The position numbers were made by a program, and so were the translations under genes. DNA of 64,000 nt, taken from the NCBI RefSeq assembly GCF_000516555.1, contig NZ_AZSJ01000007.1:232511-296510 (forward strand), given 5' to 3'. Origin of the DNA: Afipia sp. P52-10 (lineage in GTDB: Bacteria; Pseudomonadota; Alphaproteobacteria; Rhizobiales; Xanthobacteraceae). Positions 3,075-36,655 of the stretch are shown here, piece after piece. A model generated the notes under the pieces. It had not been told where the DNA came from, did not search any database, and was given only the letters and a program-made list of their open reading frames with translations. The first letter of the stretch is position 1; every line of letters begins with the position of its first letter.

Positions 3075-3144
3075 GCGCATGATCTTTCCGGAGAGCCGGT
3101 TCCCGCTTCGTGCCAATGCGGCCGTTCCGGTCTGGATCATGCTC
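3075..3144. repeat. Dispersed intergenic palindromic element (GCGCATGATC type)
   Basis: GCGCATGATCTTTCCGGA at the left end and GGATCATGCTC at the right end form an imperfect inverted pair flanking CCGGTTCCCGC. I recognise this arrangement as a short intergenic repeat common in Bradyrhizobium-group genomes (general recollection, not a search). A degenerate half copy lies near 44892. Confidence 0.5.
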
Positions 3145-3164
3145 AAATCACCACAGGGGGCGTC

Positions 3165-4216: not shown

Positions 4217-4456
4217 ATGAGTGACATTGGCGAGCGGGTTAAGAAGATCGTGGTCGAGCACCTTGGTGTCGAGCCCGAGAAGGTGGTCGAGGGCGCAAGC
4301 TTCATCGACGATCTCGGCGCGGACAGCCTCGACACGGTCGAGCTCGTGATGGCCTTTGAAGAAGAGTTCGGCTGCGAGATTCCGGACGACGCGGCCGAGA
4401 CGATCCTCACCGTCGGCGACGCAACGAAATTCCTCGAGAAGAACGCAAAGAGCTGA
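4217..4456 (+). CDS. acpP: Acyl carrier protein AcpP
   Basis: This 79-residue acidic helical protein carries growing acyl chains on a phosphopantetheine arm. The attachment motif [15 protein letters not shown] is present, with the modified serine near residue 37 (DSL). Met in [10 protein letters not shown] is the conventional start. An in-frame upstream ATG at 4121 would add 32 unrelated basic residues and is not credible. Size and sequence match the alphaproteobacterial fatty acid synthesis ACP, not a polyketide or nodulation ACP. fabF follows 96 bases later. Confidence 0.97.
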
Positions 4457-4552
4457 CGCTCGGTCGTCGGAGCTCGGCAGTCGGTTCGGCCTCTTGGGCA
4501 CGAACCGGTTTGCTGTTCCGAGCTCTGACAGCGTCCAGTCGGAGTGCCAAAG

Positions 4553-5818: not shown

Positions 5819-5952
5819 GTCTGGTAAATCCCTGAAATGGCGGGAATTTCACCCTTTCGCCATATTCCGGGATAACGTCGCTCAGGACTGAGTGGTGGGG
5901 GTGCGTCGAATATGGCGCCTGCCGCGCAGATGAAATCAGGGTCAGGTCAAGG

Positions 5953-7215: not shown

Positions 7216-7358
7216 CCGCCGGCCGTTGACCCGGCCGCTGCGGCCGTGCAAACCGTGTGCGGCGGTTCGTGCCAGAAGACGAGGCGGTGCGCGCGGATCG
7301 GTTCGTGCGCAGGCGCGACCCGCCGGTGTTTCGCAATACGCACACGGGGTACGCATTG

Positions 7359-8246
7359 ATGGCACTGTCGAGCATGACCGGCTTTGCACGGAGCCACGGG
7401 GCGTACGGCGCCTATACGTTCGAATGGGAGCTGCGCTCGGTCAATGCCAAGGGTTTCGACCTGCGGCTGCGGCTGCCATCCGGTTTCGACGCAATCGAGG
7501 CGCCGGTGCGTAAGAGCGCAGCGGAGCGGCTGGCGCGCGGCACGGTCTACGCCAATCTCACGGTGAAACGCGCCGACGCGGCGCCGGTGATCCGCGTCAA
7601 CGAGGAGGTGCTCGGCTCGGTGATGCAGGTCGCAGCCGCGCTGTCGGCAAAGCTGAAGGCTCCGCCCCCGACCGTGGACGGCATCCTGGCGATCAAGGGC
7701 GTGCTGGAGGTGTCAGAGCCGGACGAGACGGACGATGAGCGCAGCGCGGCGGAGGCGGCGGTGCTGGCGGCCTTCGGCACAGCGCTCGCCGGGCTGATCG
7801 AGATGCGCCATCGCGAGGGCGCATCGCTGCAGGCGATCCTGTCGGCACGGCTGGACGAGATCGCGGTCCTGGCCAAGCGGGCCGACACCGCGCCCGGGCG
7901 GCAACCGGAGGCGATCAAGGCGCGGCTCGCAGAACAGATCGCGACACTGCTGGAGGCGAGTGAGCGGTTCGATGCGGACCGGCTGCATCAGGAGGCGCTG
8001 ATGATCGCAACCCGCGCCGACATCCGCGAGGAGCTCGATCGTATCGGTTCGCATGTGGCGCAGGCGCGCGAGCTGATCGGCAAGGGCGGGGCGGTCGGCC
8101 GCAGGCTCGATTTCCTCGCGCAGGAATTCAACCGCGAAGTGAACACCACTTGCTCGAAGTCCAACGACGTCGAACTGACGAACATCGGTCTTGAACTGAA
8201 GACCGTGGTCGAGCAGTTCCGCGAGCAGGTTCAGAATCTGGAGTGA
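7359..8246 (+). CDS. yicC: YicC family endoribonuclease
   Basis: The 295-residue product begins MALSSMTGFARSHG and ends with EFNREVNTTCSKSNDVELT, then LELKTVVEQFREQVQNLE. These are the two conserved ends of the YicC family, which includes an RNA endonuclease acting on small and messenger RNAs. I chose ATG 7359 because SMTGFARS is the conserved N-terminus. The frame remains open to 7257 without homology. Its stop overlaps the extended 5' frame of gmk. The yicC-gmk pair is widely conserved, so co-transcription is likely. Confidence 0.93.
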   Translation: MALSSMTGFARSHGAYGAYTFEWELRSVNAKGFDLRLRLPSGFDAIEAPVRKSAAERLARGTVYANLTVKRADAAPVIRVNEEVLGSVMQVAAALSAKLKAPPPTVDGILAIKGVLEVSEPDETDDERSAAEAAVLAAFGTALAGLIEMRHREGASLQAILSARLDEIAVLAKRADTAPGRQPEAIKARLAEQIATLLEASERFDADRLHQEALMIATRADIREELDRIGSHVAQARELIGKGGAVGRRLDFLAQEFNREVNTTCSKSNDVELTNIGLELKTVVEQFREQVQNLE

Positions 8247-9880: not shown

Positions 9881-11014
9881 TCAGTTCGTCAGCATGATGC
9901 GGCCAACGACGTGGCCGGCGCGCAGTTCGTCGATCCACTTCTGCGTCTCACCCATCGGCCTTTCCTGCATCGGCGTCGGCTTCACCTTGCCGGCGCGGGC
10001 GAGCGCCATCAGCTCCTTGGCTTCTTCCAGCGTGCCGGTCATGAAGCCCTCGATGGTCATGCGCTTGTAGATCCATTGCACCATCGGCAGGCTGAAGTTG
10101 CCGCCCATCAAGCCGGAGACGACGATCTTGCCGCCGCGCGCGACCGTGGACACCGCAAAGCCCATCGATTTGTCGTTGCCGGCGAAATCGACCACGCCGT
10201 CGAAGCCGCCGTCGGTCTCCTTGAGGATGCGCTTGATCACGTCAGGCTCGGACGGATCGTAGGCCACCGCTGCGCCATTCTTCAGCGCGCTCTCGCGCGC
10301 CGCCGGATTGAGGTCGGCGACGGTGATCGGCTGCTTGAACATCGCCTGGGCCAGCGACAGGCCCATCATGCCGACGCCGCCGAGGCCTATCAGCAGGAGG
10401 TTGCGCTGGCGCGACCGGTCGACCAGCCGCTTCAGCGCGCCGTAGGCGGTGATGCCTGAGCACATCAACGTCGTGTCCACCGGCACTGGATCGTAGTCGA
10501 GCAGATATTTCGCGTCCGGCACCAGGACGTGGGTGGCGAAGCCGCCGTCGATCGATACGCCGAGGAAGCGGTTGCGCGCGCACAGGTTCTCGTCGCCGGC
10601 GAGGCAGTCGCGGCATTTGCCGCAGCCGATCCACGGGAACACCGCCTTCTTCTTGCCGATGATGTCCTTCGGCGCGTCGGGACCGACCTCGTCGACGACG
10701 CCGGCGATCTCGTGGCCGAGGGTGAAGGGCAGGGTCATGCCGCGCGTGGTGTCGAGGCGCTTGCCGCCGCCGAGGTCCGCGTAGCCGTCCTGGATGTGCA
10801 GATCGGAATGGCAGAGGCCGCAGCGCTCGATCCGCACCAGCACCTCAGCCCCTTGCGGCTTCGGCGTGTCGACGACAGTTTCGCAGAGCGGAGCATCGAA
10901 CTTGACGAGTGACTGTCTGCGTACATCGATGACGGTCGATATGCCCCCGCAGGAAACGTTCGAGTTCGCTTTGGCTTCGGAGACGTGCCGGTATCCGATC
11001 CGGTGTTTTTCCAC
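9881..11014 (-). CDS. Zinc-dependent alcohol dehydrogenase, 5' end at prophage junction
   Basis: This medium-chain alcohol dehydrogenase has the catalytic zinc site CGLCHSDLH and GHE (TLGHEIAG), the structural zinc cluster CGKCRDCLAGDENLC, and the NAD fold GLGGVGMMG. The reaction would be NAD(P)-dependent oxidation of an alcohol or reduction of an aldehyde; the substrate is unknown. Recognisable homology begins at about VIDVRRQSLVKFD (near 10930). The 27 residues before it come from DNA that reads on the other strand as phage tail protein. The only in-frame start codon upstream is GTG 11014. The native start was probably lost at the junction, so expression or the N-terminus may be altered. 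Confidence 0.82.
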   Translation of the reverse strand: MEKHRIGYRHVSEAKANSNVSCGGISTVIDVRRQSLVKFDAPLCETVVDTPKPQGAEVLVRIERCGLCHSDLHIQDGYADLGGGKRLDTTRGMTLPFTLGHEIAGVVDEVGPDAPKDIIGKKKAVFPWIGCGKCRDCLAGDENLCARNRFLGVSIDGGFATHVLVPDAKYLLDYDPVPVDTTLMCSGITAYGALKRLVDRSRQRNLLLIGLGGVGMMGLSLAQAMFKQPITVADLNPAARESALKNGAAVAYDPSEPDVIKRILKETDGGFDGVVDFAGNDKSMGFAVSTVARGGKIVVSGLMGGNFSLPMVQWIYKRMTIEGFMTGTLEEAKELMALARAGKVKPTPMQERPMGETQKWIDELRAGHVVGRIMLTN

Positions 11015-12121
11015 GACGGCGGACCTCCAGGACTATTTGACGGCGCGACACATCGGGGCAATGGGATCGCGTGGGCGTCGCTGTACTGCGAAGGAACCGG
11101 GTTCTCCGCACAGCAAATAACGCAGGTTTACCCGCGAGGTCTGCCTGTGCTGTCCGTTGTTGCTGATTGCGCTCCGGTCTGGGACCCGCGCGATCCGGCT
11201 CAATCGCGCGCAAACCCGTCGACGTGGCAGATCAGTTACAACCCTATTCTCCATCTGATCGACTACATCACTGAGCCTGACGGAGGTCTCGGGCTCGAAT
11301 ACGAAACCGTAATTGAGCCGGTGCTTAACGCATGGATGGCCGAGGCTGACTTATGCGATGAGCGCGTTGCAACCGCGAGCGGAGGGACTGAGCCGCGCTA
11401 CACCTCGAACGGCTGGTATCAGTTCGATAACGAGCCAAAGGACGTTATCAACGCGATCTTGGCGACATGCGACGGGTGGCTTGCCGAGGCGGGTGACGGA
11501 ACGCTTGCCGTCAAGGTCGGCGTGTACCGCGAACCGACTGTCACGCTTACTCAGAACGAGATTTTTGACTTCAGCTTGAGTTACGGCCAGCCGGACGAGC
11601 AGGCTGTAAACTAGTTGGACATCTCCTATACGGACCCGAACCAAAACTATGTACAGGTGCAGCTCGAGCCGCTCCAGGATGAAGGTGCGATTACGGCTTC
11701 TGGCGTTGTCCGCGCGCAGACGCTCGACCTGAAGTGGACGCAAACGAATTCCCAAGCAAGCCGCCTTGGCTACCGTGCCATGCAGCGGCTGAACCCATCG
11801 TTGACGGGCTCGTTCTCTACTGGGCTTTCGGGACTTCGTGCGCTCGGTGAGCGGTGGGTCAGGGTCCAGTATCCTTTCGTGTCCGGCCTGCAGGATGATG
11901 TGATTGAGATCCAGCCCGGGACGAAGATCGACCTTGTGAATGGTCGCATCACCTTCAAGTTCAATCGCATCTCGGAAGACGACATCGAAGCCTACGACCC
12001 GGACGAGAATGAAATTCCGCAACCCCCGGTGCCGCCGTTCGTAGGTGAAGAGCTCATTCTAAAACGCGAAGACGGCTCGCTGTACGTCCGTGAGGACGGC
12101 TTCGCTTTGCTCAGGGAATAA
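10937..12121 (+). pseudogene. Phage tail tip (host specificity J-like) protein, 5'-truncated with amber stop
   Basis: The frame resembles the C-terminal third of lambda J-type tail tip proteins: RGNGIAWASL, VYPRGLPVLSVVADC, VWDPRD, then NPILHLIDYITEPDGGLGLE, and fibronectin-like strands later. Tail tip proteins usually exceed 1000 residues; about 390 codons remain. The frame is open from 10913, but the meaningful sequence begins near 10937, at the junction with the alcohol dehydrogenase. A TAG at 11612-11614 interrupts the same frame. Downstream codons (LDISYTDPNQNYVQVQ) continue the protein without a shift to 12121. The first possible start in the fragment is GTG 10985. It is most likely a non-functional remnant. 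Confidence 0.78.
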
Positions 12122-12123
12122 CC

Positions 12124-13229
12124 ATGGCAGGGAAAATCTCGGACGATCCGGACAAGATCGTAGCCGGAACGGACAAGCTCGCTGGCGCCGCAAGTGGCGC
12201 GAACTACGGAATCCTGATTTCATCCGTCGCCACTTATCTGGGAGCCTGACCGAAGCGCTCACGAATAAGACGATCAATGCGGCGAGCAACACGATCAGCA
12301 ATCTAACGACCGCGATGTTTGCCGCGAACGTCATCGACAATGACGGCTCGTTAGCGGCGAATAGCTCGACAAGGTTGCCGACGCAGGCCGCCGTGAAGTC
12401 CGCAATCGACGCTCTGCTGAATGCAAGCAACGCCGAGCAGTTCAAAGGGTCGATCGATTGCTCTGCGAACCCGAACTACCCAGCCGCTGAGGCCGGATAT
12501 GTCTATCGCGTAAGTGTGGCGGGCAAGATTGGAGGGGCGTCAGGAATCAATGTTGAGGTCGGCGATCGTTTGCAATGTATCGTGGACGGGTCGGCGTCTG
12601 GCAATCAGGCGACCGTTGGCGCGAACTGGTGGATCACGCAGGCAAACATTGACGGTGCTGTCGTCGGACCGTCAAGCTCTGTAGACAATGTGTTGGCGCG
12701 TTTCGACGGAACGTCCGGAAAGGTTATCCAAGGATCGCCGGTTGTCGTGGCTGATACGACTGGGGCGCTTTCGCGATCAGGTGGGGGCGGAGTCCCAGTT
12801 CAAGGCACCAATACGAACGATAACGCCGCAGCCGGCGATATGGGAGAGCATGTATCTGCGTCGCGCGGGTTCGGCTCCGCATTGGCACTTACGTCAGGGG
12901 CTGCTGCCGACGTAACGTCTATCTCTCTCGCGCCTGGGGATTATGAGGTCGTTGGAGCCGTTGCCTTTTTGGGCGATGCTGCAACCAGCTGTAGTGTTCA
13001 TCAAGCAGGCATTTCAACGGCCAGTGCGACGCTTCCCGGGACTGGCCTTTTTGCCGCCTTCACCAACGGCGGCACAATATTCACGACTGGTGCAGGTCCG
13101 GCCTACAACGTGGGCCCCGTCAGAATTTCGCTAAGCGTGACGACCACCATCTACTTCGTAGGGCAGGCTGTATTTAGTGGCGGCACCATGTCCGTCTACG
13201 GCTCAATCCGCGCGCGTCGGGTTCGATAG
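12124..13229 (+). pseudogene. Phage tail fibre protein with single-base frameshift
   Basis: ATG 12124, two bases after the tail tip stop, encodes MAGKISDDPDKIVAGTDKL and continues to LISSVATYLGA before a TGA at 12247. The remainder lies in the -1 frame: SLTEALTNKTINAASNT, then TRLPTQAAVKSAIDALL, then AEAGYVYRVSVAGKIGGAS, all characteristic of tail fibre repeats and shaft regions. Restoring one G in CTGGGAGCC at 12239-12246 would join TYLG to SLTEALTNKT. The open frame 12090-13229 that covers the distal part has an artificial N-terminus. The C-terminal 110 residues (SGAAADVTSISLAPGDYEV onward) look like a beta-sandwich head domain. Confidence 0.72.
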
Positions 13230-13263: not shown

Positions 13264-15764
13264 ATGACCGATCTGTCGGCAGCTGAGGTCTTCCGCGACT
13301 TTAACGTACAGAGCCTTCCGGCAAGCGGCCCGCATAAGCCGGTGAAGCGCGAAGTTGTGGCGCTTCTTACGGGGATGGATGATAGAATTGCGGCAGGCTT
13401 CGCCGCATCGGGCTTGGGATATGTGTCGCGAGCGGCTCTTTTTGCGAATCTGGTCCCGGTTGCGAATTCGCTTGCTCAGGTCCGCGGGGACGGCACGGCT
13501 GCCTACAACGGCTATTACAAAAAAAAATCGGTTCCAGTGGAGTCGGGTCGTGGTTGCGTATTGCTGACCTCGCAGGAGATTACGCTTTGATCGTAACCGG
13601 CGGCACGCCGAACGCGATCGAAGCAACCGTCATTCCAGGTCTTCCGACTGCGCCTGGACAGCACATCTACATTCTTGTGCCGACTTCGACGAACACGGGG
13701 CCCGTCACGATTTCCGTTGAAGGCGAGCCCGCCGTTCCGATCAAAAGCACCTTCGGGACCGATCTCTCAGCGAACTCGATTCTGGCGGATGTGCCGCAGC
13801 TCTTGGTCTGGTCAGTTGACCACTACGCACTCTTGACGCCGGCTGCGGTTGATGCTGACGCGATACTAGCCACCGTGGTGGCTGCGAAGGATGACGCGGA
13901 GGATGCCCGTGATGCTGCGGTCGCAGCCGCAGCTGGCGTTAGCCTCCCGTCCATCGTGAGCGGTAGCGCCGGCAAGGTGCTGCAGGTTAATGCGGGTGAG
14001 ACGGCGCACGAGCTGGTCTCTGTCGCTGATGTGGCGGCGCGCACCTTTGGCCTGAAGGCGCTTCTGTCGGCGGCAGACTGGGCGGATGTGCGAGATGCAA
14101 CGAATGTCCGCGATATCGCATCCCCGTTGAATGCGCGCATTGCCGAGCTCGCTGGAACCTACCCGGGCTGCACGATCGATGCAACCGCGTGGCGAGGTGA
14201 GACGGTAGCTGAAGTTGACCTGTTTAATGGTATTACCGCGGCGAATATCCGCCTGATTACCGGCAAGCTTACGTTGCGGAAAGAAATGAACCAAGGTGTT
14301 GCTGGCTCCGGTGCATTCCGGCGGCCATCGTATCTCCATTGGGAGATGCATGGCACTGTCATAAAGCCGCTAACCGCGATCACTGGGAATGTTGCCAGCC
14401 CGAACGATTCTGAAAAGTCGATGGTGTCGAGTTGGCTTGGACAGACGACTGGTACCGGTGCCTTCAACCAAAAGACGGTCACGGTCGATAATCCGGCAAT
14501 CTTCAATGTGGGTGCGCGTATTGCCATCGAAGGACTCTCGGCAGATTCGACGGTCGCCTATAATCTATCGGGTAACATCGACTCCAGTACTTTGACGATC
14601 AATCTGAGCGGGAGCACTTTGCACACTATCAATGGGGGGCATGTGTACGTTCAGATCGACAACGAGATCATCCTAGGCGCGATCTCTACCGGAGGCGTGA
14701 TGACGGTTGCACAACGTGGGGCAAACGGCAGCACGGCTGCATCCCATACTTCCGGAACGCCGGTTTACTGGAGCAACTCTCTTGTCACTACCGTCATGTC
14801 GGTTGTTGGTAGTGTAGTAACCGTATCTGACGCATTTCCAAATCACTTCACGGATGCGGTGATTCACGTTGGAGCCATCGGACACAAGGTGTCTGGTGAA
14901 TATCTCATCGACGGAGAATTTGATGAAGGGACGGGCAGTCCATCTGCGTTCTATCAATGCATGGGGTCTGTGCTGAGCACTGGCTGCACGGTGTCAGGTC
15001 GCGGAGTTCTCCGTCGCGCGCCGTTTGCTGGCCTGTTCGAATATGCCTCAGCTTACAATAAGATCAGCTTGGATGAAGTTGCGACGATTGGCCGGCCATC
15101 GTCTAACCTCGGGGGCGGGATTTGGATTTTCGGCCAGAATCTTCGAACCAAAGTTCGTTGCGCGCGACTCCAGAATACGGTGAATGCATGCTTCATAGAC
15201 GACAAGTCTGAAAGCGCTGGCCTGTTCGGTCTTGAGCGACCGAACAATCAGTGTTCGATTAGCATTGAATGTGCGACAAACCTTGCCAACGGATTCGGTA
15301 TCTCTGGGTCCCGCGACAGCCGTATCCGGTTTGGCTTCCTCAGTGCCGACGTCGCCGGAACGATCAACAACAACGAAGGTCAGCGAACGTCGCTCCTTCC
15401 TGACATTCGGAACAATGTCGTAACGATCGAATCCGATGCATGTGGTTCAGGGGCGAGCGGAGACGTTCTGAACAAAGACGGAAACCGGGTTCGGCGGTTA
15501 TCTCTGAGTGAGTTTCTAACTCAGGTTATGCTCGGCTCTACCAACATTCCTGCCAACGGTGCCAATGATGTCAACTTCAGTGTCCCCGGTTCGAAGGTTG
15601 GGGCCGCAGTAAGTGTGACGCCTCTCTTCGCCCCGCTCGGTGGGATTGCTGTCGCCTATGCTTACGTAGTGGCGCCGGACTCGGTGAAGGTCGGCTTCAC
15701 TAACTCGAGTGGGGGAGACCTTGCAGTCGCTGGAAATCTTTTGATTTCGGTACGGAATGGATAG
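13264..15764 (+). pseudogene. Tail spike/fibre protein split at a run of nine A
   Basis: Two overlapping frames make one protein. 13264-13590 (MTDLSAAEVFRDFNVQSLPA, then YNGYYKKK) runs into nine consecutive A at 13519-13527. The continuation GSSGVGSWLRIADLAGDY and the following 730 residues lie in the -1 frame to 15764. A length change in the A run, or slippage on it, would restore a spike of about 830 residues. The distal part (residues about 400-700, with many short beta strands and GFGISGSRDSRIRFG) resembles a beta-helix receptor-binding or depolymerase spike. An Ala-rich helix (AKDDAEDARDAAVAAAAGV) resembles the trimerising stalk. Read conventionally it is broken. Regulated slippage is the alternative. 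Confidence 0.68.
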
Positions 15765-15770
15765 TCGCAC

Positions 15771-17123
15771 TCAATCAACCCGGCCGATGGCGATGCGGCG
15801 AGCGAGGAGTCCCCAACCTAGTGCGGGGAGCGGCCAGAATATAGCTTTCGTGGTCGCGACCAAAAATAAGCAGAAAGCGCCAAAATAGAGTGTTGCAAGC
15901 CAGAGAGGGTCGTTTTTTCCTTTCAAGACGATCTGATGAGCGGCGACCAACGGAGGGGCTGCGCAAAGCGTAACGTAGACCAGAAATGCCACAATTCCGA
16001 ACTGCCTCCATGCAGAGAGGGCATTGTGGATGTATGATCCGATCGGGTAGTTATTCTTTGTCTGACCTCCATAGACGCCGAAAAATGGGGACGATTTGAT
16101 GTCGTCCCATCCGCGGGTAAGCATCTGCTTTCGGAACGACCATGACTCAGATTGCGACAGGTCGATAATCGTCGTTTGTCGCGCAATATCGAGAGTGTAA
16201 TCGGACGATCTATCGTGCTGCATCTTTGGTGGTGCGGTGGGTTCATCGGTCTTTGTCGGTGGTGCGGTGGGTTCATCGGTCTTTGTCGGTGGTGCGGTGA
16301 CATGCTTCTGCTGTGCCCCAGAAAGAACGTCCGCGATGAGTGGAGGCAAGTAGAGTACTGATACAGTCAGCGCGATCAGGACGACGAGTCCTGTTGCGAC
16401 GGTCAGAAAGCGTCCTCTAATGGCTGTAACGACAATCCAGATCAGAACAAGAAGGCCATATCCGTAAAAGTCGCTTCGTGATCCAAGAATTAGAAGGGTT
16501 GTAAATCCAACTGCCAACACTACTGGCTCAATCCAGGAGCCCCAATTAAGGCTTAGGGCCAAAATGGCAGTGGCTACGAATGCAAGCGCGAATCCTTGGT
16601 ATTCCGCAACTCCAACTGGTGCGTTAAAGCGCTTGGTGGCGATGAACTGGAGTGTTTGTGGATCGATGGCTACAATCGCAAGTCCAGCCATCGCAAAGAG
16701 GCAGATCGTAGTGGCATTGCGTAGTGTAGCTGCCGCAGAGACGAAGTAGCCTATAAGGTAGAGTGAGACCAGGGTCACAGTGGTTGTTGCGGCGTGTACC
16801 GCGACTGCCGGGTTTCGCTGAAAGTCTTCTCCAAGAAAGTAGTGATAGACGATACAAAAAGAAATGATCGCAACGAGAGTCCCAAACAGTGCGTGTATCG
16901 TTAACTGCGTCCCGGCGATCGGCTTTGAAAGCAGAAACGTAACTCCAAGCGACACCGCAGCCGCTAGACAGCCAAGGATAAACCATCCTTTTATCGCCAG
17001 GGGAATCAGGCCAGCGGCAGCAAAGTAATGGTAGAAGTAGTAGCCGGGAAAAACTATAAGGAAGGCTGCAAGAGCGAGTTTTTCGGCAAACCTGCTTTGG
17101 GGGGCGATGGGGATTATTGTCAT
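15771..17123 (-). CDS. O-antigen ligase/polymerase-like membrane protein (Wzy_C type)
   Basis: This 450-residue protein has about eleven hydrophobic segments and one large loop at about 275-345, the architecture of the O-antigen ligase/Wzy superfamily. After the loop come RGWDDIKSSPFFGVYGG and SYIHNALSAWRQFGIVAF. They match the pattern (H-N near the end of the periplasmic loop) seen in WaaL/Wzy_C proteins that transfer lipid-linked glycans. The loop carries a tandem TAPPTKTDEP repeat. The stop lies 6 bases from the convergent stop of the spike gene. Lower G+C than the core suggests foreign origin. Whether it ligates or polymerises cannot be told. Confidence 0.72.
   Translation of the reverse strand: MTIIPIAPQSRFAEKLALAAFLIVFPGYYFYHYFAAAGLIPLAIKGWFILGCLAAAVSLGVTFLLSKPIAGTQLTIHALFGTLVAIISFCIVYHYFLGEDFQRNPAVAVHAATTTVTLVSLYLIGYFVSAAATLRNATTICLFAMAGLAIVAIDPQTLQFIATKRFNAPVGVAEYQGFALAFVATAILALSLNWGSWIEPVVLAVGFTTLLILGSRSDFYGYGLLVLIWIVVTAIRGRFLTVATGLVVLIALTVSVLYLPPLIADVLSGAQQKHVTAPPTKTDEPTAPPTKTDEPTAPPKMQHDRSSDYTLDIARQTTIIDLSQSESWSFRKQMLTRGWDDIKSSPFFGVYGGQTKNNYPIGSYIHNALSAWRQFGIVAFLVYVTLCAAPPLVAAHQIVLKGKNDPLWLATLYFGAFCLFLVATTKAIFWPLPALGWGLLARRIAIGRVD
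16231..16300 (-). repeat. 30-bp tandem repeat inside the ligase-like gene
   Basis: Two identical 30-base units (16231-16260 and 16261-16290) are followed by 9 of the next 10 bases of a third. They encode TKTDEPTAPP twice in the periplasmic loop. Perfect identity at 30 bases suggests recent expansion and possible length variation. Confidence 0.9.
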
Positions 17124-17185
17124 CTCGATTCTTGAATGAGCGTTGATTAGAGGCGATTGTTAGCAAATTTCCATGTGGGATCAAC

Positions 17186-18427
17186 ATGCGGGTGCTCTAC
17201 GTTGATGGGGTGGGGCCTTTTGGTGGCGCGTCCCGAAGTCTATTCGAAGCAATCAGAGCTCTGCCTTCCGGCTCTGTTGAAGGCTATTTCCTAGCTGCGG
17301 AAGGTACGGCACTCGATTACTACCGGCGGGTCGCGAAGGACGTGGTGGTCACGCGCGGGTTAACGCGCTTCGACAACACGCAATATAGCCACTATCGCGG
17401 TGCTCGCTGGCTCGTGCTGCTGCGAGAAGCTTTTCACATGCCATTTACGCTTGCTTGCATCCTCCGCGCAAAGGCGAAGTGGCGTAGTGTCGATGTGATA
17501 CACGTGAATGAAATTACAGAGATCATTCCAGGACTAATCGCGAAGACGCTGTTCCGAGCTCCGGTGATCGTTCATGTAAGATCGCCGCAGCGTAAGGATG
17601 AGCGAAGCATAAGGTCGAGAGCAATTCATTGTCTGCTTCGTTCGAATGTGGCGGCGGTGGTTGCGATCGACGAAACGGTCAGGTCGTCCCTTCCGGCCGA
17701 TATTGATGTAGATGTCATACATAATTCATTCACTCCTCTATCCGACGTCCAAGATGCCGACTTTCGGAACAAGTTGGGCCAAACGCTAACCGGAGGGCTG
17801 TTCACTGTTGGATATGTTGGCAGTCTGCATACGTTAAAGGGAATAGAAGATCTGGTTGAGGCGGCAAAGATCGTTTGCAGCAGGCGGGATGATGTTCAAT
17901 TTGCCATTGTCGGTGGAGTAACTGGTAACGACCGAAGCGCCAAAGCGAAGATGTTAGGAGCGTTTCGTTTAGGTCAGAATGTGGCCACCAATGTTATAAA
18001 CAAGGTCCATGCATATGGTCTCGGATCGCGCTTCCATTTGCTGGGGCCGACAAACGACATAACATCCGCTTATAATGCGTTCGATGTTTTGGCCTTTCCG
18101 TCGCACTTGAACGCGGTAGGGAGGCCCGTTTTTGAGGCCGCGTTTGCAGAAGTTCCAAGTATCGTCGCAATAAAAGATCCTAAGCCGGATACCTTGGTGC
18201 ATGGAGAAACCGGCCTTTCCGTTCCCGATAAATCCCCTGAAGCGATTGCGGATGCAATCTGCTTTCTCGCAGATCGGAGAGATGAAGCGGCGAGGATGGG
18301 ACGGAATGCCCGGGCACTTGCAGAAATAAACTTTGGCGCAAAGTCAAACTCGGCACGTCTTCTGGAGATTTATCGTCGGGTGCATCAAGGCGAGGTTGCC
18401 GGAGGGGCGACACGCCCAACCACATAG
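17186..18427 (+). CDS. Glycosyltransferase family 4
   Basis: This 413-residue GT-B glycosyltransferase would transfer a sugar from a nucleotide-sugar donor to a lipid-linked or glycan acceptor at the cytoplasmic membrane face. The N-terminal domain has YVDGVGPFGGASRSL and DVIHVNEITEIIPG. The C-terminal donor domain has VGYVGSLHTLKGIEDLVEA and ends in the family loop PSHLNAVGRPVFEAAFAEVP followed by HGETGLSVPDKSPEAIADAI. The E-(x7)-E motif appears as GRPVFEAAFAEVPS with Phe and Glu in usual places. It is divergent from the ligase-like gene (62 bases) and its 3' end overlaps the convergent next gene by 43 bases. Confidence 0.87.
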   Translation: MRVLYVDGVGPFGGASRSLFEAIRALPSGSVEGYFLAAEGTALDYYRRVAKDVVVTRGLTRFDNTQYSHYRGARWLVLLREAFHMPFTLACILRAKAKWRSVDVIHVNEITEIIPGLIAKTLFRAPVIVHVRSPQRKDERSIRSRAIHCLLRSNVAAVVAIDETVRSSLPADIDVDVIHNSFTPLSDVQDADFRNKLGQTLTGGLFTVGYVGSLHTLKGIEDLVEAAKIVCSRRDDVQFAIVGGVTGNDRSAKAKMLGAFRLGQNVATNVINKVHAYGLGSRFHLLGPTNDITSAYNAFDVLAFPSHLNAVGRPVFEAAFAEVPSIVAIKDPKPDTLVHGETGLSVPDKSPEAIADAICFLADRRDEAARMGRNARALAEINFGAKSNSARLLEIYRRVHQGEVAGGATRPTT

Positions 18428-20412
18428 CTTTCGTTTTCGTAAGTCGTCTCAATGGGAATGTTGCCATTAATGCGTCGTCGTTCGAATACGAAGTAGCCTA
18501 TGCGATACTTGGTAGCCAAACGTTCGAACCATTCTTTGGGCGCGCTGTAGTAGACCCGTCTTACATCGTCGGGTATTTCCCGGCGTGCAACATTTGGGTC
18601 CATGCTTAGATAATTATTGAGATCCAAGCCGAACTCCGAAAATCGGCGCAATCCTTCATCAAAGGTCGTCTTATTGGAGTTGTAGGCGAAATTTGTGTAG
18701 AGCCACTCGCGCAGCGATCCAAACGAGGGACGATGGGAGAACTCTCGCCATCCGTAAGCGTGGGCGGGATCCGGCATGAACAGCGCGTTTGCTGGAGTAT
18801 TTCTGCGAGCCCATTGTTGAACGTCGAGGTAATCGCGCGCGATTTTGATGGCGCTTGGGGAGGATAAGCCGAGATTGATCGTCGGTGCGTAGTAGAGAGC
18901 ACCTAAGCAGAGGAGGACCATAAGCGCCGTCCGAATGCGAAGCACGAGTGCTGCGACGATCAGAATAGCGGCTATTGCGAGGGAAATCACGGCGGCCGAG
19001 CTAACGGCATCAGCTCCAAAGTAGGCATCCCGGATGTGTGAGGTAAGGAATCCTCTGGCGGCAAGAGAGGCCACTACGACGGCGAAGTTCGCGTAGAGAA
19101 AGAAATAAACGATAGAGCGCTGGCTTCGGAAGTCTGCTCGCCAACTATTAATGGCGGACGGTAACGTTAGTGCTGCTGCCAACGCGGCTGGCACACCGAA
19201 TGACGTGCCGAAAGGTAGGAGCAGAACTAGGATGGCTAGGACAGCTAGTGCGATCTTTTGATTGAATGCATCTCGCCACAGTCCGGCGACCACGATGATC
19301 GCTCCGAAGAGTAGTAGGATCGTGTTTGCCCGGTGGATGGCTAGCTTTATGAGGAAGGGAGAATCTGAGTACTCGGAGATAAAGATTCCGGCGATGGTCA
19401 TCGCAGCAAGCGATAAGAAACCGATGCCTAGCTGCCGATCTAGGCCGGAAAGTGAGGCGCTATCTTTGTAGAGATACTTTCCGAGCAACAGCAGAAAGCC
19501 AGTCTGCGGGGATAGCGCCATAAAGTAAAGGTAGCCGAACATTCCTGTCGAGATTGGGAACCAATGTGATCCCATGAAGCGCGTAAGGCCGATGTACAGA
19601 TCTGCGGGGATAGCGCCTCCGGACAGTCGCGCATCGTGCATCGTGTACGCAGTCCAGCCCAGGAAGATGATGGAGAAAATCAGGGCTGACTGGAGGAGCT
19701 CCGAAAGCTTGTATCGCTTCAGATCGGCGAGAACGGCTGAGCTAGCAAATGCAAGCATGAGCAAGCCCAAGATCGGGTGTGCGGTTCCGGCAAGCGCTAG
19801 TAGGAATGCACCGATACGTGTCCGACCAACGATAAGGAGGGCTGCGCCTGCTAGACCAGGGCCATACGCATAGCTGTAAACGGACCCGTAAACTGGGTGC
19901 CACCACATTGAGAAATTACAGTTGATGAGACTGCTCGCGGTCAGCGTGATGGCGACGGCCGCTCCTTGGGCAGCGGATGAATTGGGCCTGAGCAAGTGCG
20001 TAGCGATCAGAGCTCCAACTGCAACGGAAATGATCTCGAGAAATAGCATCACTTTGAATATCCCGATGCCGGAAACGCCGAGCTTGCCGAGGATCGGATA
20101 AACCAGCATCGGAAGAGATTTCAGAACTTCCGCTTCACCATTCGGAAAATCGGCTGCGAACGGTGGCGTGCCGGATACCTGGTTCGCGAGCCAAGAGGGG
20201 GAAAAGCCGCTGAAAGCAGCGCTCTCTACCGCGACGTGTGCGCGCGTCACCCAGACGACGACGGCAACAAATAGAATGGCGGCAATGGCCGAGAGCGCGC
20301 AGAAAGTGGGATCGGTTTCGAGAGTCTGGATTATCCGGTTAAGGCGGTTCTCTGATCGTTGTGCAACTCGTGGGTCTACTGGTTCGGGGCGCAGCATTCG
20401 AGACGTTGTCAT
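18385..20412 (-). CDS. Large polytopic membrane protein, GT-C-like
   Basis: The product has about 675 residues with roughly a dozen membrane segments and a C-terminal soluble domain of about 130 residues. That domain begins ARDYLDVQQWARRNTP, continues FMPDPAHAYGWREFS and RPSFGSLREWLYTNF, and holds the sequence ERLATKYRIGYFVFERR. The W-A-R-x-x-T-P pattern followed by a surface domain is seen in GT-C-fold and YfhO/DUF6798-like proteins that use polyprenyl-linked sugars. The catalytic acidic loop is not obvious to me. ATG 20412 overlaps the stop of the upstream polymerase-like gene (ATGA), indicating translational coupling. A start at 20439 is also open. Its 3' end overlaps the convergent GT4 gene. 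Confidence 0.6.
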   Translation of the reverse strand: MTTSRMLRPEPVDPRVAQRSENRLNRIIQTLETDPTFCALSAIAAILFVAVVVWVTRAHVAVESAAFSGFSPSWLANQVSGTPPFAADFPNGEAEVLKSLPMLVYPILGKLGVSGIGIFKVMLFLEIISVAVGALIATHLLRPNSSAAQGAAVAITLTASSLINCNFSMWWHPVYGSVYSYAYGPGLAGAALLIVGRTRIGAFLLALAGTAHPILGLLMLAFASSAVLADLKRYKLSELLQSALIFSIIFLGWTAYTMHDARLSGGAIPADLYIGLTRFMGSHWFPISTGMFGYLYFMALSPQTGFLLLLGKYLYKDSASLSGLDRQLGIGFLSLAAMTIAGIFISEYSDSPFLIKLAIHRANTILLLFGAIIVVAGLWRDAFNQKIALAVLAILVLLLPFGTSFGVPAALAAALTLPSAINSWRADFRSQRSIVYFFLYANFAVVVASLAARGFLTSHIRDAYFGADAVSSAAVISLAIAAILIVAALVLRIRTALMVLLCLGALYYAPTINLGLSSPSAIKIARDYLDVQQWARRNTPANALFMPDPAHAYGWREFSHRPSFGSLREWLYTNFAYNSNKTTFDEGLRRFSEFGLDLNNYLSMDPNVARREIPDDVRRVYYSAPKEWFERLATKYRIGYFVFERRRINGNIPIETTYENESYVVGRVAPPATSP

Positions 20413-21770
20413 GATCTGTGCGGTCTGAGACGTGGCCACAGGGACCTGAATCGGTTCTCCGAAAAAACGTACAGAGTAATTGGCCAGAACAACCCGCCGA
20501 ATGATGCCAGTGTCGTGAACAGCGGTGCGTTAAGGACGACCATCGTGAGAGGGGACATCAGAAGGATGACGAGGCGAATATCCCAGCCTGAACTGCAGTA
20601 GTCGAGGAGCTTCAGCCATGCGGCGAATACTACGCTCACCGCGAGAATGCCCATCCATCCCGCGGCAGCGACGCCATCGCTAGCGAAGAAATGGGCGTTA
20701 TAATTGAAATTTTCGTACCCGATCATGTGCCGACCTACGATCAAGCCGAGTTGCGGCCAGTTCGGATCGCTTAGCAATTCAATAGGCTTCGGGACAAACA
20801 TGGAGATTCCGCGAACGTGCGACCACCATGTCAAACGTTCGCCGGAGAACGTCTCAGCGTAGCTCGATAGTGCCAAACCGGGCAGCCCGATTGTCCGCAG
20901 AATGATGAATTGGGATTGTCCATATAACAGAAGGTGCTGATAGAGCAGATATGATGCTGCAAGGCCCGTTGCACTGAGAAGAATGAGTAGGGAGTTGCTT
21001 CTCAGTGGCCTCCAATTTGAGCAAAGCGCAAGGAATAGGATGGTCATAACGACCGGCATGCAAAGGGCGGTTCGCTGTGCGTCGATGAGGTAGTTGAGGA
21101 CGAACCCGCCCAACGCTGCAGCCAGATACAGGTAATTCCTCTTCAAGAGGCCAAACGCAAACAAGCCGGGGCAAGCAACATTCAGATAGTAGGTTCGCGT
21201 GTACGCGAGAACCGCACCGCTCGCCCTTCCAAGCGCCCGCTGTTCATACGGTGCGTCAGGAGGGGCCCAACTTAGAATTGCGTGGTGCTGATAGAACAGG
21301 ACCACGGTCGCAATCGAAAAGAAGACTGCAATTAAACTCTCAAGCGGAACGCTGCTGATCTGTTTCCCGGTCGGTTGCGGCCCCGATCGCGCGATGTGGC
21401 AGCAAAGACAGAACCCTGCTGTCATTGCGAGCAGGGATGGAGCGTGCTGGCTGAAACTATATTCGGTAAGGAGCGCCGTTACCACCAACGTGGGAACGAT
21501 TACAAGGACGTAGACAAGGGAAACGAATAGTCCGGATGCGCGGTCAATGTAGTGAGGTAGAACAGCCGCCTGGAGAGAAATCAGGACAGCGACTGCCGCA
21601 AACGTGATCGCAGAAGGCGGGAAGAATTCGAAGCCGTAAATTTTCCAGTTGTGGTGAAGGTACCATCGGTAGGCGACGAAGACGACGGCAGCATAGACGA
21701 GAGACAAAACAATTCTTGTTGCGGCGCTCGAGACGATTTGATCGGCGCGATAGTGAAGCAAATTGAGCAT
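20409..21770 (-). CDS. Wzy-like oligosaccharide polymerase (multi-pass membrane protein)
   Basis: The 453-residue product starting MLNLLHYRADQIV has about twelve hydrophobic segments. A periplasmic loop sits in the C-terminal half (YAETFSGERLTWWSHVRGIS, then HMIGYENFNYNAHFFASDGV). Topology and the loop with N-A-H-F-F-A-S-D resemble Wzy-type repeat-unit polymerases such as the O-antigen polymerase family. The frame extends to 21854, but the extra residues are Cys/His-rich and unlike a membrane protein start. It is the first gene of a coupled minus-strand pair with the GT-C-like protein. Sequence in this family is poorly conserved, so the call rests on topology and neighbours. Confidence 0.62.
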   Translation of the reverse strand: MLNLLHYRADQIVSSAATRIVLSLVYAAVVFVAYRWYLHHNWKIYGFEFFPPSAITFAAVAVLISLQAAVLPHYIDRASGLFVSLVYVLVIVPTLVVTALLTEYSFSQHAPSLLAMTAGFCLCCHIARSGPQPTGKQISSVPLESLIAVFFSIATVVLFYQHHAILSWAPPDAPYEQRALGRASGAVLAYTRTYYLNVACPGLFAFGLLKRNYLYLAAALGGFVLNYLIDAQRTALCMPVVMTILFLALCSNWRPLRSNSLLILLSATGLAASYLLYQHLLLYGQSQFIILRTIGLPGLALSSYAETFSGERLTWWSHVRGISMFVPKPIELLSDPNWPQLGLIVGRHMIGYENFNYNAHFFASDGVAAAGWMGILAVSVVFAAWLKLLDYCSSGWDIRLVILLMSPLTMVVLNAPLFTTLASFGGLFWPITLYVFSENRFRSLWPRLRPHRS

Positions 21771-22022
21771 TTGAAATCTTTGAATCGCCAAGAAGTAGCA
21801 TTGACAGAAGTGGGCGGAAAAATGAACCCGCGTGCAATAGCATGGTCGATGCACTCATGGCTACTCTTGCAACCTGGTGAGGATCAATCCCCCGAAAGCG
21901 GATAAGTCGCTGCCGAATTTGGCCGGGTTCCACACACTCCGATGATACTGCCGATGTGGGTCGTCTGAGCTCTACGCGCTGATTGCGCCAAATGTCACTT
22001 TCTTAGCACCACGGAGACATCG

Positions 22023-22757
22023 ATGGCCTACACGGTCAGTCGGATCATTTCCGACGATACTTTGTCGCGCATTATTCAGATCGAGAGCGCCGGCAAGCCG
22101 ACAGCGAAGGCGCCGACGTCAAGTGCGACGGGGCTGGGACAATTCATCTCCAGCACGTGGTTGGCCGTCGTGCGGAAGCATCGGCCGGCGTGGGCGGTCG
22201 GAAAGTCTGACAGCCAGCTTCTGGCGCTTCGTACCGATCCGAAGTGCTCAATCGAGATGCTGGCTCGGTTCACTGAGGACAACGCCTCATACCTGGGCGC
22301 AGGATATACAGATGGTGACCTGTACCTGGCGCACTTCGCAGGCGCAGGGACCGCGAAGAAGCTGCTGCGAGCGTCCGGGTCCGCAGACTGCGCGTCCGTC
22401 TTCTCGTCAGCGGCAATCGCCGCCAATCGTTCGATCCTCTCCGGCAAGACCTGCGGCCAGGTCCGCGCGTGGGCGGCGAGCAAGATGAAGGCGGCCGGCG
22501 GTCGCAACTGGGTCGCGGTCTATATGGCTGGCGCGAAGCCAACTGTGGCGCCCGTGGTCAAGAAAACCGCGGCTGCCACGACAGTAACCACGACAGCAAC
22601 AACGACGGCCGCCGTCCAGCAGGGCTGGTCGGCCGGCTCAATCCTAATGGCAATCGGCATCACGTTTGTCATCGGCGGAGTGATTGGGGCTGCGGTCTAT
22701 TTCTGGCCGCGCAAGACGCTGATGAAGGTCGAGGAGGGGCTTAAAGATGGACTTTGA
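22023..22757 (+). CDS. Phage muralytic enzyme (lytic transglycosylase-like) with C-terminal membrane anchor
   Basis: This 244-residue protein has an SLT/lysozyme-like domain at about 8-110, with IIQIESAGKPTAKAP (catalytic Glu near residue 20), ATGLGQFISSTWL, and LAHFAGAGTAKKLL, the typical catalytic and wall patterns. A Thr/Ala-rich linker follows (about 180-205), then one membrane segment (SILMAIGITFVIGGVIGAA) and a short basic tail. No N-terminal signal is seen, so it would reach the wall after holin action or act tethered by its tail. GGAG lies before ATG. It overlaps the holin gene by 11 bases, so the lysis genes are coupled. Confidence 0.82.
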   Translation: MAYTVSRIISDDTLSRIIQIESAGKPTAKAPTSSATGLGQFISSTWLAVVRKHRPAWAVGKSDSQLLALRTDPKCSIEMLARFTEDNASYLGAGYTDGDLYLAHFAGAGTAKKLLRASGSADCASVFSSAAIAANRSILSGKTCGQVRAWAASKMKAAGGRNWVAVYMAGAKPTVAPVVKKTAAATTVTTTATTTAAVQQGWSAGSILMAIGITFVIGGVIGAAVYFWPRKTLMKVEEGLKDGL

Positions 22758-23367
22758 TTGGAAGCCGCTAGCCGGGGCGGTCATTAAGGCTGGTGCGCCG
22801 ATCATCGGCGGTGCGCTTCTAGGGCCGCTCGGTAGTGCTGCGGGCGGGATGCTGGGCGGTTTGCTTGCCGAGGCCCTTGGCGTCGAACCGACGCCAGAGG
22901 CGGTTGGGACCGCGATCCAGGCCGGTGATCCTGCTGTGGTCAGCGCAGCGCTCAGCGCAGCCGACCAACGTGCCATCGCTCAGATGGATATGATCGTTAA
23001 GGTCGCGCAGGCCCAAGCCGATGTCGATAGGACCGCGATCGAGCAGATCAACGCGACCATCCGTGAAGAAATGAAACCCGGCGTCGTGTCGTGGTGGCAT
23101 TGGCGCCATCTGCTCGGATTCGTGCCGGTCATTCTTGGCATCGAGGTGGCTGCACTTCTGCCACTGATTGTCTTCGGTAAGATCACGCCGACTGACATGG
23201 CAGCGGTAATCTCGGCCATCACGCCATTTCTTGCGATCGTCGCCGGCCTTCTCGGCTATGTAGCGATGGACACGTCTCGCCTGAAAGCACTTGCGGTGAC
23301 TGGCGAAGCCCAGCCCGCGCTTGGCTCAGCCATCGCGAAGGCGGTTCTCCCGTCGAAGAAGAAGTGA
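22747..23367 (+). CDS. 3TM-type phage/GTA holin
   Basis: This 206-residue protein contains a glycine-rich hydrophobic N-terminus (GAPIIGGALLGPLGSAAGG), a helical middle and the segment VVSWWHWRHLLGFVPVILG. Two further membrane segments end near residue 180. This is the layout of the GTA/3TM holin family found with gene transfer agents and alphaproteobacterial prophages. It would form lesions in the inner membrane to time lysis. It overlaps the muralytic enzyme gene by 11 bases and its 3' end overlaps the open frame of the next small gene. Confidence 0.78.
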   Translation: MDFDWKPLAGAVIKAGAPIIGGALLGPLGSAAGGMLGGLLAEALGVEPTPEAVGTAIQAGDPAVVSAALSAADQRAIAQMDMIVKVAQAQADVDRTAIEQINATIREEMKPGVVSWWHWRHLLGFVPVILGIEVAALLPLIVFGKITPTDMAAVISAITPFLAIVAGLLGYVAMDTSRLKALAVTGEAQPALGSAIAKAVLPSKKK

Positions 23368-23713
23368 GCCGAGAATAGCCATCGATACCACGTTGAACTT
23401 AGGCAATATCCTTACGGCCGTTGTCGCCATTGTTGCATTTGCGGTGGCGTTCACCCAACTCGGAGGTCGGGTTGACCTTTTGAAAACCGATATGGGCGGC
23501 CGGATGGACGTGCTCTCGCAAAGCGTCGGAGCCGTCGAAGAGACATTGAAGGGCCAAGGCAACGTCGCGACGCGAGTGGCGGTGCTAGAAACGCAGAACG
23601 CTGCCAACTCGAAACTGATCGCGAATCTATCCGACGAAATGGCCGACCTGCGACGCGGCCGCGGCTTCGTGCAGAGCCGCGGGCCCGGCGGTATCGACGG
23701 CGAATATCCATAG
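23321..23713 (+). CDS. Small phage membrane protein with coiled coil, possible i-spanin
   Basis: The product (up to 130 residues) has one membrane segment (LGNILTAVVAIVAFAVAFTQL) followed by a coiled coil (RVDLLKTDMGGRMDVLSQSVG, ending EMADLRRGRG). An N-terminal anchor plus periplasmic coiled coil, directly after a holin, is the layout of an inner-membrane spanin (Rz-like) or XhlA-type accessory protein. The real start is unclear. ATG 23321 lies inside the holin gene and gives an Arg-rich start. Residues IAIDTTLNLGN just after the holin stop look like the natural N-terminus but have no standard start codon. Function is inferred from position. Confidence 0.6.
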   Translation: MAQPSRRRFSRRRRSEPRIAIDTTLNLGNILTAVVAIVAFAVAFTQLGGRVDLLKTDMGGRMDVLSQSVGAVEETLKGQGNVATRVAVLETQNAANSKLIANLSDEMADLRRGRGFVQSRGPGGIDGEYP

Positions 23714-24169: not shown

Positions 24170-24295
24170 ATGACCTATTACGTTACGCTCCCGTTCGCTC
24201 GAACCTCGGATGCTCCTGATTGCCGGCGATACAGCCCAGAACACATGGTAGCCATGCAATATGAAATGCTGCGAATCGCCGCCGCTAACGTTTGA
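24170..24295 (+). CDS. Small hypothetical protein after the lysis terminator
   Basis: A 41-codon frame starts MTYYVTLPFARTSDAPDC and ends EMLRIAAANV. The composition is protein-like (aromatic start, amphipathic C-terminal helix) and an ATG follows the terminator closely. No family is recognised. Its stop overlaps the start of the sensor-kinase pseudogene frame (4 bases). Confidence 0.4.
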   Translation: MTYYVTLPFARTSDAPDCRRYSPEHMVAMQYEMLRIAAANV

Positions 24296-26203
24296 CCGAA
24301 ATCGGCATCCCGTCATGTCAAGTTAATTTTCGGACAATTTTCCATAGGATCGCTCGCGATTGGATGGTATCTCGGGGGATGCTCCTTGGTGTGAGCGCCA
24401 TCTGTTGCTTGATGGCGATCGTTACCACAGTGAATGTGTGGTCTGACCGCGATCGTCGCTTGGCTGCGGCGCATCAACACGCTGAGAGCCTCGCTCGCGT
24501 GCTCGATGAGCAGACGGGCGCGATGATTCTAGGAACTGATCTCGCACTCCTCGGAATTGCCGAAAGCTTACGACGTCCAGAAGTCAACCGGGAACACGAC
24601 CCTAACTACGAGAATTGGTTGCGTCGCCTGCTCGCAAATCTGCCAGGGGTACGCGCTCTGTTTGTCATCGGTCCTGATGGCTTCATCATTCAAGACAGCG
24701 ATCAGGATACACCGCGAGCGAATCTCTCCGACCGAGACTACTTTCAAGCGCACAGAAGCACGTCCGACCGAGGATTGTTCATCGGCAGGCCACTGGTTAG
24801 TCGGTCTGTGGGCACTTGGTTCTTAGGGCTCTCGCGACCAGTCAACACAGTGGAGGGCGCATTCGGCGGGGTGGCCGCCGCTGCATTGGAATTAAGCTAC
24901 CTTGAGCGTCTATATCGGGAAACGCGGCTTGGACCGGATGATGTGATCCCTTTAGTCAATCCGGAGGGCGCCTTGATCGCACGAATGCCAGCTGCCGACG
25001 ATCGCGTCGGGAAACCTCTTATGTCGGGACAGAGTGGGCTGGTACAGGCACTCGCTCGCAGACTGGAACGTTCGAAGCCGATAGCTTGATCGATCAGAAG
25101 CCCAGGATCTTTAGCTACCGTAGAGGGAGCAACACCCGCTGATTGTCGTAATCGGCTTGTCTCGCGCTGGCGTACTTGCAACTTGGCGGACGAATGCGGT
25201 GATTACAATCGTCGCCACGAGCGGCGCGTTCATACTGGCGTCGCTTCTGCTTCTTTTAATGATATGGCACGAGAGGCGAGAGGCATCAATCAAGGCTAGA
25301 GCCGACGAGGCTGCCAAGTTGGAGGCCCTAGGTCGGCTCACCAGTGGCGTCGCGCACGATTTCAGAAATCTCCTCGCGGTGATCACTGCCGGATTTCGGC
25401 TGCTCGCTAAATTCACCCGCGGCGACGCGCGTGCAGACGAAATCATTCAACAGGGACTCGCGTCCCTGGATCGTGGCTGCAAGTTAGTCGATCAGCTCCT
25501 AAGCGTTGCTAGGCCGCAGGCGCTGCTAATACAGGAGGTCGACATAAACCGCCTCCTAACTGAGAGCGCGACGCTGCTCCAAAATGCAGCGCAATCGCGA
25601 GCTAGCGTCGAACTGAGCCTTGATCCCAACCTCCCGCTGTGCCGCGCTGACCCCGCTCGCCTCGAAGCTGCTCTGCTAAACCTTATCGTGAATGCCAGGG
25701 ATGCGCTCGGTGAGCGTCACGGCTCGATCCGTATTTCAACGAAAGGCTGCGACGAACCAGTTTTAGCTCAGGATGGCCTTGAAGCCGGAAAGTTCGTTTG
25801 CTTGAGCGTCCGCGACGACGGTCCCGGTATGCCGAAGGAGATTCTCCGTCGTGCCATGGAGCCATTCTTCACGACTAAAGGTGACCGTGGCACGGGACTT
25901 GGCCTGTCTCAGGTTCATGCATTCATGCGAGAGATGGGCGGTGACATGATGATCGAAAGCGAAGTCGGAGTAGGAACGGCCATAAATCTTCTTCTGCCAC
26001 GGGCCGAGCGTAGTGCACTGACGGAGCGCCTGAGTTGGCCAACGACGACGCGCCGATCCTTACTGGTTCACGGCGGCCGCCGATTACGGCGGGCTGATCT
26101 ACCGTTCTTTTGGTACACGCGCTCAGCGATCCCGAGACGGCGGGGTGTTGCGTTTCGATCGCTTTGTGCGCCGACCAGCGGCTTCCGGACCATTGCCCAG
26201 TGA
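24292..26203 (+). pseudogene. Sensor histidine kinase with dCache-like domain, two frameshifts
   Basis: The first frame (24292-25089) has a membrane segment (GVSAICCLMAIVTTVNVW), a periplasmic PDC/dCache-type sensor (GVRALFVIGPDGFI, then LSDRDYFQAHRS and FIGRPLVSRSVG) and stops. The continuation FEADSLIDQKPRIFSYRRG lies in another frame. LIVVIGLSRAGVLATWR and the rest lie in a third (open from 25157). That part holds a second membrane segment, the HisKA box SGVAHDFRNLL with the phospho-acceptor His, and the N and G boxes LIVNARDALG and GTGLGLSQVHAFM. After about 26040 the alternate frame reads LANDDAPIL, like the start of a lost receiver domain. Two single-base losses (near 25070 and 25130) and a truncated 3' end make it inactive. 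Confidence 0.75.
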
Positions 26204-36652: not shown

Positions 36653-36655
36653 GTC

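Follow-up and report, generated by a model that had tools for sequence, protein, structure and literature searches.

A stretch of 64,000 nt from Afipia sp. P52-10 (contig NZ_AZSJ01000007.1; hereafter the window, to which all coordinates refer unless a locus label such as L009 or L010 is given) carries, at 15771-21770, four intact reading frames, A to D, flanked by the frame of a tail spike on one side and an SLT lysozyme-type gene on the other. It is moderately likely that these genes form a lysogenic-conversion cassette of the kind known from phage D3, which would swap the polymerase of the O-antigen or exopolysaccharide (EPS) of the host and add side sugars. Given that the relatives found for C and D are chromosomal polysaccharide genes, the cassette joins a phage-type polymerase, A, to captured host-type genes. 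The families of A and B, the slot, the strand pattern, the probable fold of C (from a model of moderate quality), and the occurrence of D-family genes at phage-marked sites are all supported by the tools applied here.

Gene A (15771-17123, minus strand, 450 aa) encodes a D3 Wzy-beta-type polymerase of the Wzy_C superfamily and is followed by B (17186-18427, plus strand, 413 aa), a GT4 glycosyltransferase (PF00534, E 3.6e-23), C (18385-20439, minus strand, 684 aa), a probable GT-C-fold membrane glycosyltransferase, and D (20409-21770, minus strand, 453 aa from its ATG, beyond which the frame stays open to 21854), a Wzy-like polymerase by an unproven assignment from context. The convergent genes B and C share 43 bp, and C and D share 31 bp. 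A first-pass annotation of this DNA had placed the four genes between spike and lysis genes, 6 bases after the spike stop (15764), and both the frames and the families of the flanking genes agree with it.

Gene A and its slot

A just passes the Pfam cut-off for Wzy_C (E 1.2e-7) and matches phrog_19842 (E 9.1e-11). Among 50,697 phage records, it has only 11 matches at E 0.01, all from Pseudomonas phages, including D3, PMG1, and phi297; several of these are annotated as O-antigen beta polymerase and the others as polymerase, ligase-family protein, or phosphatidate cytidylyltransferase, and each match spans just 17-19% of A (residues 314-400 or 314-390). With a hidden Markov model (HMM) built from three Wzy-beta proteins, A left out, A scores 56.2 bits (E 1.6e-16) over two stretches, residues 19-235 and residues 314-400, whereas 1000 shuffles give at most 7.7 bits. 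Neither the two other Wzy_C proteins of the genome nor C or D appear in the 32 rows listed for this HMM, which extend down to 2.0 bits, and the two Wzy_C proteins have no match to the Wzy-beta PHROG either. By sequence, A is a member of the D3 Wzy-beta polymerase family. The candidate reading of A as merely a generic ligase was ruled out by its matches to the Wzy-beta HMM and PHROG, the other Wzy_C proteins of the genome being absent from the rows listed for the former and from the hits of the latter.

The same scores bear on another explanation, in which A would be the ligase and D the polymerase of a separate prophage polymer built with B and C. The marginal score of A for Wzy_C, a ligase family, and the combination of a Wzy-like protein, a GT4, and a GT-C-like protein in one set are in keeping with such a pathway, but the four genes include no initiating sugar-phosphate transferase, flippase, chain-length regulator, or sugar-nucleotide gene, and A fits the Wzy-beta polymerase, which the other Wzy_C proteins of the genome do not. 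We therefore hold a self-contained prophage polymer to be improbable.

In D3 Wzy-beta, R254, R270, R272, and H300 of PL4 are reported to be essential, and R151 of the RX10G motif is reported to be needed only jointly with R147 (PMC4815439). In a MAFFT alignment, A keeps R315, R331, and H366 at the positions of R254, R270, and H300, and R147 is kept as R165. These two essential arginines and the histidine are one likeness of the cassette to the D3 serotype-conversion unit (wzy-beta, iap, oac), and the other is an antisense Wzy-beta polymerase between tail fibre and endolysin: in D3, the tail fibre is followed by wzy-beta in antisense and then by the endolysin on the strand of the fibre. The fibre lies beyond wzy on the opposite strand in all 21 viral contigs with a protein 53-100% identical to D3 Wzy-beta, which are close D3 relatives (one is D3 itself) and not independent of one another. 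A D3-like endolysin stands on the other side of wzy in 10 of the 21, the remaining 11 not having been checked for another lysis gene. The earlier claim that this slot is typical of phage conversion genes is thus borne out by the slot and strands of D3, by A being a Wzy-beta homologue, and by a wzz-wzy-like pair between phage scars on contig C4 of the same genome.

The cassette differs from the D3 unit in adding a GT4, a GT-C-like protein, and a second Wzy-like protein, in lacking a recognisable Iap-like peptide or O-acetylase, and in residing in a bacterial class other than that of Pseudomonas. Phage phi297 carries wzy-beta with no iap annotated in the stretch viewed and no acetylase annotated near wzy, and PMG1 likewise carries wzy-beta. 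While D3-type conversion is already known in Pseudomonas phages, here the polymerase occupies the same slot in another class and is joined with host-type genes, which suggests that this slot serves glycan remodelling more generally. A search of the literature on prophage-borne O-antigen conversion or wzy in Bradyrhizobium and rhizobia, by title and abstract start, found nothing of this kind.

Among 296 genomes of the family, A is present only in its own, and scans of viral contigs with A, by short exact peptide patterns that miss distant relatives, found no match. Inside the gene, ahead of the aligned catalytic stretch, lies a 30-bp perfect tandem repeat (16228-16299, 2.4 copies), which encodes an in-frame Pro/Thr-rich repeat whose copy number could vary without a frameshift.

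Companion genes and their relatives

B has no second copy in its own genome at E 0.001 and shows weak matches in 3 phage records. C matches no Pfam family above cut-off, and its assignment comes from an AlphaFold2 model built on a six-sequence alignment, with a mean predicted local distance difference test score (pLDDT) of 62.6, a predicted template modelling score of 0.58, and residues 56-105 below pLDDT 50. Compared with solved structures by VIA, the 44 best rows listed (Z 14.1 to 6.9) are all GT-C enzymes or GT-C-like subunits, including AftD, AglB/STT3, ALG12, AftA, ArnT, DPY19, PglB, Emb, PimE, and the GPI-transamidase U chain, with root-mean-square deviations mostly of 5-10 A; the row below them (Z 4.9) is unrelated. 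The best Z of 14.1 lies where, according to the note of the tool itself, mostly helical models score without a clear match, which counts against this assignment and hence the reading of the cassette; given that helical models can reach Z 14 by themselves, the fold is called from the agreement among the rows and from the drop in Z that follows them. Foldseek gives a best E of 8e-3, its top 12 entries being OST, C-mannosyltransferase, AftD, or translocon entries. On this model, C is probably a GT-C-fold membrane glycosyltransferase. The first-pass annotation had counted two polymerase/ligase-type proteins with one transferase; A and D are indeed of polymerase type, but with C being GT-C-like, the transferases are probably two.

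C is found in only one of the 296 family genomes, its own, and in two of 297 order genomes (its own and G355), and a wider scan gives five loci (L033-L037), of which L037 is the G355 locus also labelled L027. L033, L034, L035, and L037/L027 are polysaccharide clusters that hold some of AsnB, DegT aminotransferase, deacetylase, heparinase-like protein, and methyltransferase, as labelled by eye; in the own-genome cluster, AsnB and DegT are Pfam-matched and the heparinase-like frame has no Pfam match. A GT2 gene adjoins the C relative in L033 and L027. A cluster of the same kind is present on contig C4 of the own genome, in the polysaccharide locus L009, with a paralogue 54% identical to C (L009:7543-9498) and a GT2 gene (L009:2312-3409). 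Searches with C against phages and plasmids gave no match, and a first C alignment found none in genome contigs. In the remaining locus, L036, a broken C relative (3068-7632) stands beside sugar genes, with an apparent two-gene insertion sequence, recognised by eye, at 3755-6038.

D has 7 hydropathy segments and is matched in 3 of the 296 family genomes and, with a three-row profile, in 6 of 397 order genomes, its own being counted in both. Its relatives at 32-34% identity are a gene on own contig C4 (L009:11539-12903) and one in the family member G101 (L028:9295-10698), the latter sitting in the wzy position, between a GT4 gene and wzx, of an O-antigen-type locus. More distant relatives, in five genomes, stand among sugar genes without a match to the phage proteins of the window, and no match to D was found in phages and plasmids. 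D is read as a putative Wzy-like polymerase solely from its context. A profile comparison of D against A found no relation between these two polymerase-type proteins. In G227, G195, and G166 (L029, L095, and L096), each chromosomal polysaccharide locus has two distant relatives of D, the pair in G227 being 56% identical to each other.

All three D-family copies found in the own genome stand at phage-marked sites, and the only intact relative of D there, the C4 paralogue, is flanked by phage scars. On C4, a first wzz-like gene (L009:9650-10366), which looks cut short at its 3' end, lies beside a scar of the lysozyme start (L009:10588-10662, minus strand; 75 bp, 79% identical, genome-wide E 2.6e-9). 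There follow a second wzz-like gene, wzz2 (L009:10782-11573), which is 45% identical to the first and matches Pfam Wzz only at E 0.58, the intact wzy-like paralogue, a tail-fibre scar (L009:13436-13251, minus strand; 71% over 213 bp to the fibre of the window, E 2.5e-28), and a decayed D copy (L009:13516-14231), whose pieces, mostly 53-74% identical, contain stops; phage ERF and exonuclease genes come next. The order of lysozyme on the minus strand, wzz and wzy on the plus strand, and fibre on the minus strand is that of the window slot reversed, and the scars provide a case where prophages may have brought in or replaced a chromosomal wzy. Three phage sites are seen in the own genome, two of which hold polysaccharide genes in the slot. 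The third, a phage tail-lysis end at the start of contig C7 (L010:1-6202), has a third lysozyme relative (C7:4936) 765 bases after the fibre gene and no cassette in its slot.

The chromosomal clusters with C relatives (own C4, G355, L033, L034, and L035) or D relatives (own C4 and G101) thus resemble the cassette in their C and D homologues; those in other genomes differ in having no match to the phage proteins of the window, and own C4 has phage scars. One might suppose that chromosomal polysaccharide genes were recombined into the prophage by chance and serve no phage role, given that no intact relative of C or D was found other than in chromosomes and that C is 54% identical to a C4 gene of its own genome. 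We attach little probability to this, for A is of phage type, the slot and the antisense layout match D3, and the same slot at C4 holds wzz2-wzy between phage scars. Composition bears on the source of the genes. As claimed earlier, A to D are lower in G+C (52-55%) than the core, taken as the window before 10.9 kb and after 36 kb (64.8%), the tail and lysis genes having 56-62%. This fits capture from a C4-like polysaccharide locus, since the six genes measured in the own C4 locus are low too (49-53%).

Proposed remodelling of the host glycan

From these assignments, we infer the individual enzymatic steps, the donor, the acceptor, the role of D as a polymerase, and the exclusion phenotype. The C4 O-antigen/EPS loci of the host would supply lipid-linked repeat units, flipped by host Wzx, and the prophage would supply alternative periplasmic polymerases, namely A, of the inverting Wzy-beta type, and D, kin of a host Wzy-like gene. 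B may add a sugar to the unit or change one on it in the cytoplasm, whereas C, as a GT-C enzyme, would decorate the chain in the periplasm from a polyprenyl-phosphate sugar, a donor that probably comes from a host GT2 of the type accompanying some chromosomal C relatives. The changed linkage and side groups could, in turn, hide the receptor used by the spike or by rival phages.

Parts of this scheme have counterparts elsewhere. In the three-component Gtr systems of P22 and Shigella phages, a GT-C membrane enzyme decorates the O-antigen from a polyprenyl-phosphate sugar, which is the role predicted for C; unlike these systems, the cassette has no gtrA flippase or gtrB GT2, and a host GT2 on C4 would make the donor. 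D3 lysogens are reported to resist other phages (PMC4815439). In one strain of Acinetobacter baumannii, the prophage genes wzy1Ph and wzy2Ph, of the EpsG and Wzy_C families, are described as accounting for changed capsule linkages (PMC13228068). The likeness lies in prophage polymerases of two families using host repeat units, two per genome; in the account of that strain, however, they belong to separate prophages, the capsule structures are known, and the genes are assigned to linkages, whereas here two predicted polymerases share one cassette with two transferases.

The host O-antigen locus may be relevant in a further way. The own locus (L011) has ten genes in common, at 55-84% identity, with the syntenic locus of G101, the wzy of which has no counterpart in L011. 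By a simple hydropathy window, the only L011 protein with at least 4 predicted membrane segments is wzx, and a tblastn search for D-family pieces over 92 kb (C4:428001-520000) found none outside L009. A tentative and rather doubtful reading is that this O-antigen locus is wzy-less and that host polymerisation has moved to phage slots, that is, to the cassette with A and D and to wzz2-wzy on C4, with a third, decayed copy adjoining. If true, successive prophages would have replaced each other's polymerase, and the moron site would be a changeable polymerase docking site for the major surface glycan. Against it stand a 9-segment protein at L097:15279-16760 and the two other Wzy_C genes of the genome, as well as the diversity of Wzy proteins, so that a further polymerase may lie elsewhere in the genome.

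State of the prophage and points against the cassette

In G045, the one other genome of the genus that was compared, the ADH gene is directly followed by ksgA, while in the window about 25.7 kb separates the two, which lie near 10.93 and 36.65 kb. Of the phage, a remnant survives. It makes up the left half of the extra DNA, the right half being other cargo and a split HerA/terminase-like ATPase, and its recognised parts run from J to the lysis genes, plus the split ATPase at 34.5-36.2 kb. No att site is claimed, as no exact direct repeat of at least 11 bp was found between 10880-11100 and 36350-36720. The prophage setting proposed by the first-pass annotation accordingly holds insofar as tail and lysis genes flank the cassette, but what is left is a remnant. 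That the whole window is prophage was considered and ruled out, given that ADH, ksgA, and the genes outside them are collinear with G045 and only the 25.7 kb or so is extra.

On the tail side, all on the plus strand, a J-like gene remnant (10985-12121) is truncated at its left end and has an in-frame stop at 11612-11614, the pieces on either side matching phrog_5616 at 177-371 and 376-518. It is followed by a tail fibre frame (12090-13229; phrog_11393, E 7.5e-13), a relative of which left the scar at C4, and by the tail spike frame (13554-15764, 736 aa; PHROG tail family). A tail-fibre-like piece (13264-13590; phrog_38233), which overlaps the spike in a different frame, is probably its N-terminus, and the overlap looks like a frameshift. 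On the lysis side, also on the plus strand, the SLT transglycosylase/endolysin-type gene (22023-22757; phrog_4067, E 1.1e-27; PF01464) is followed by two small frames (22747-23713), one of the phrog_1544 family and one without a family.

Several findings weigh against a conversion cassette. A has Q333 in place of the essential R272, and the alignment shows a gap opposite R151 of RX10G; A is still filed in the family by sequence, because these residues define D3 function and not family membership. Among frames of at least 20 aa at 15700-22050, inspection by eye found no Iap-like hydrophobic peptide, for which reason the cassette is not filed as a full member of the D3 unit, and none of the four genes is an O-acetylase or acyltransferase. 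D matches nothing in Pfam, NCBIfam, or PDB sequences, and structure prediction, which had been proposed for the membrane proteins and indicated a GT-C-like fold for C, gave for D an unusable single-sequence model (pLDDT 42.9). Neither C nor D was found in phage records or, by pattern scans that miss distant relatives, in viral contigs, and the four-gene set, the recurrence of which in other prophages had been put forward as a check, was found in no other phage record or viral contig, B alone not having been sought in the latter. Every intact relative of C and D found outside the own genome lies in a chromosomal polysaccharide locus, and C and D look captured from chromosomes. The first-pass annotation had named in advance, as speaking against its view, homologues confined to such loci, and this is the pattern seen for C and for the intact relatives of D; overall, its observation is confirmed and its interpretation is partly supported. 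Moreover, a promoter scan returned 2 sites, with 4.6 expected by chance, and in a phage reduced to a remnant, superinfection exclusion need no longer be under selection.

The intact frames of A to D suggest that they are kept by selection. The contrast that had been drawn with broken neighbours holds on the tail side, with the stop in J and the probable frameshift in the spike, but the lysis-side frames at 22023-23713 are open as well, so the cassette is not alone in having intact frames. The genes may instead be silent cargo, a former conversion unit that is unexpressed in the remnant and intact only through recent or patchy decay. J and probably the spike are broken, most of the phage is unrecognisable, there is no convincing promoter, and the open lysis-side frames point the same way; yet the four genes run through about 5.9 kb of coding sequence without interruption next to broken tail genes, and the decayed C4 copy of D illustrates the effect of decay on a gene of this type here. 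Silent cargo is thus considered unlikely, and a conversion cassette remains the favoured reading.

Scans of the wider region added little. No RNA family was found by Rfam at 10500-37000, a PADLOC run on A to D gave no match, and a sequence search of A, C, D, and the spike against solved structures returned only two chance-level rows (E 0.29 and 0.18). In the rest of the island, a sensor kinase at 24292-26203 (plus strand) is split in two, one part with dCache and the other with HisKA/HATPase, and a 797-aa AI-2E-type transporter fused to a GAF domain is encoded at 31041-33434 (minus strand). The HerA/FtsK-like ATPase at 34518-36193 (minus strand) appears as two overlapping frames and is probably broken, its upstream piece matching PADLOC HerA models and the terminase family phrog_2666.

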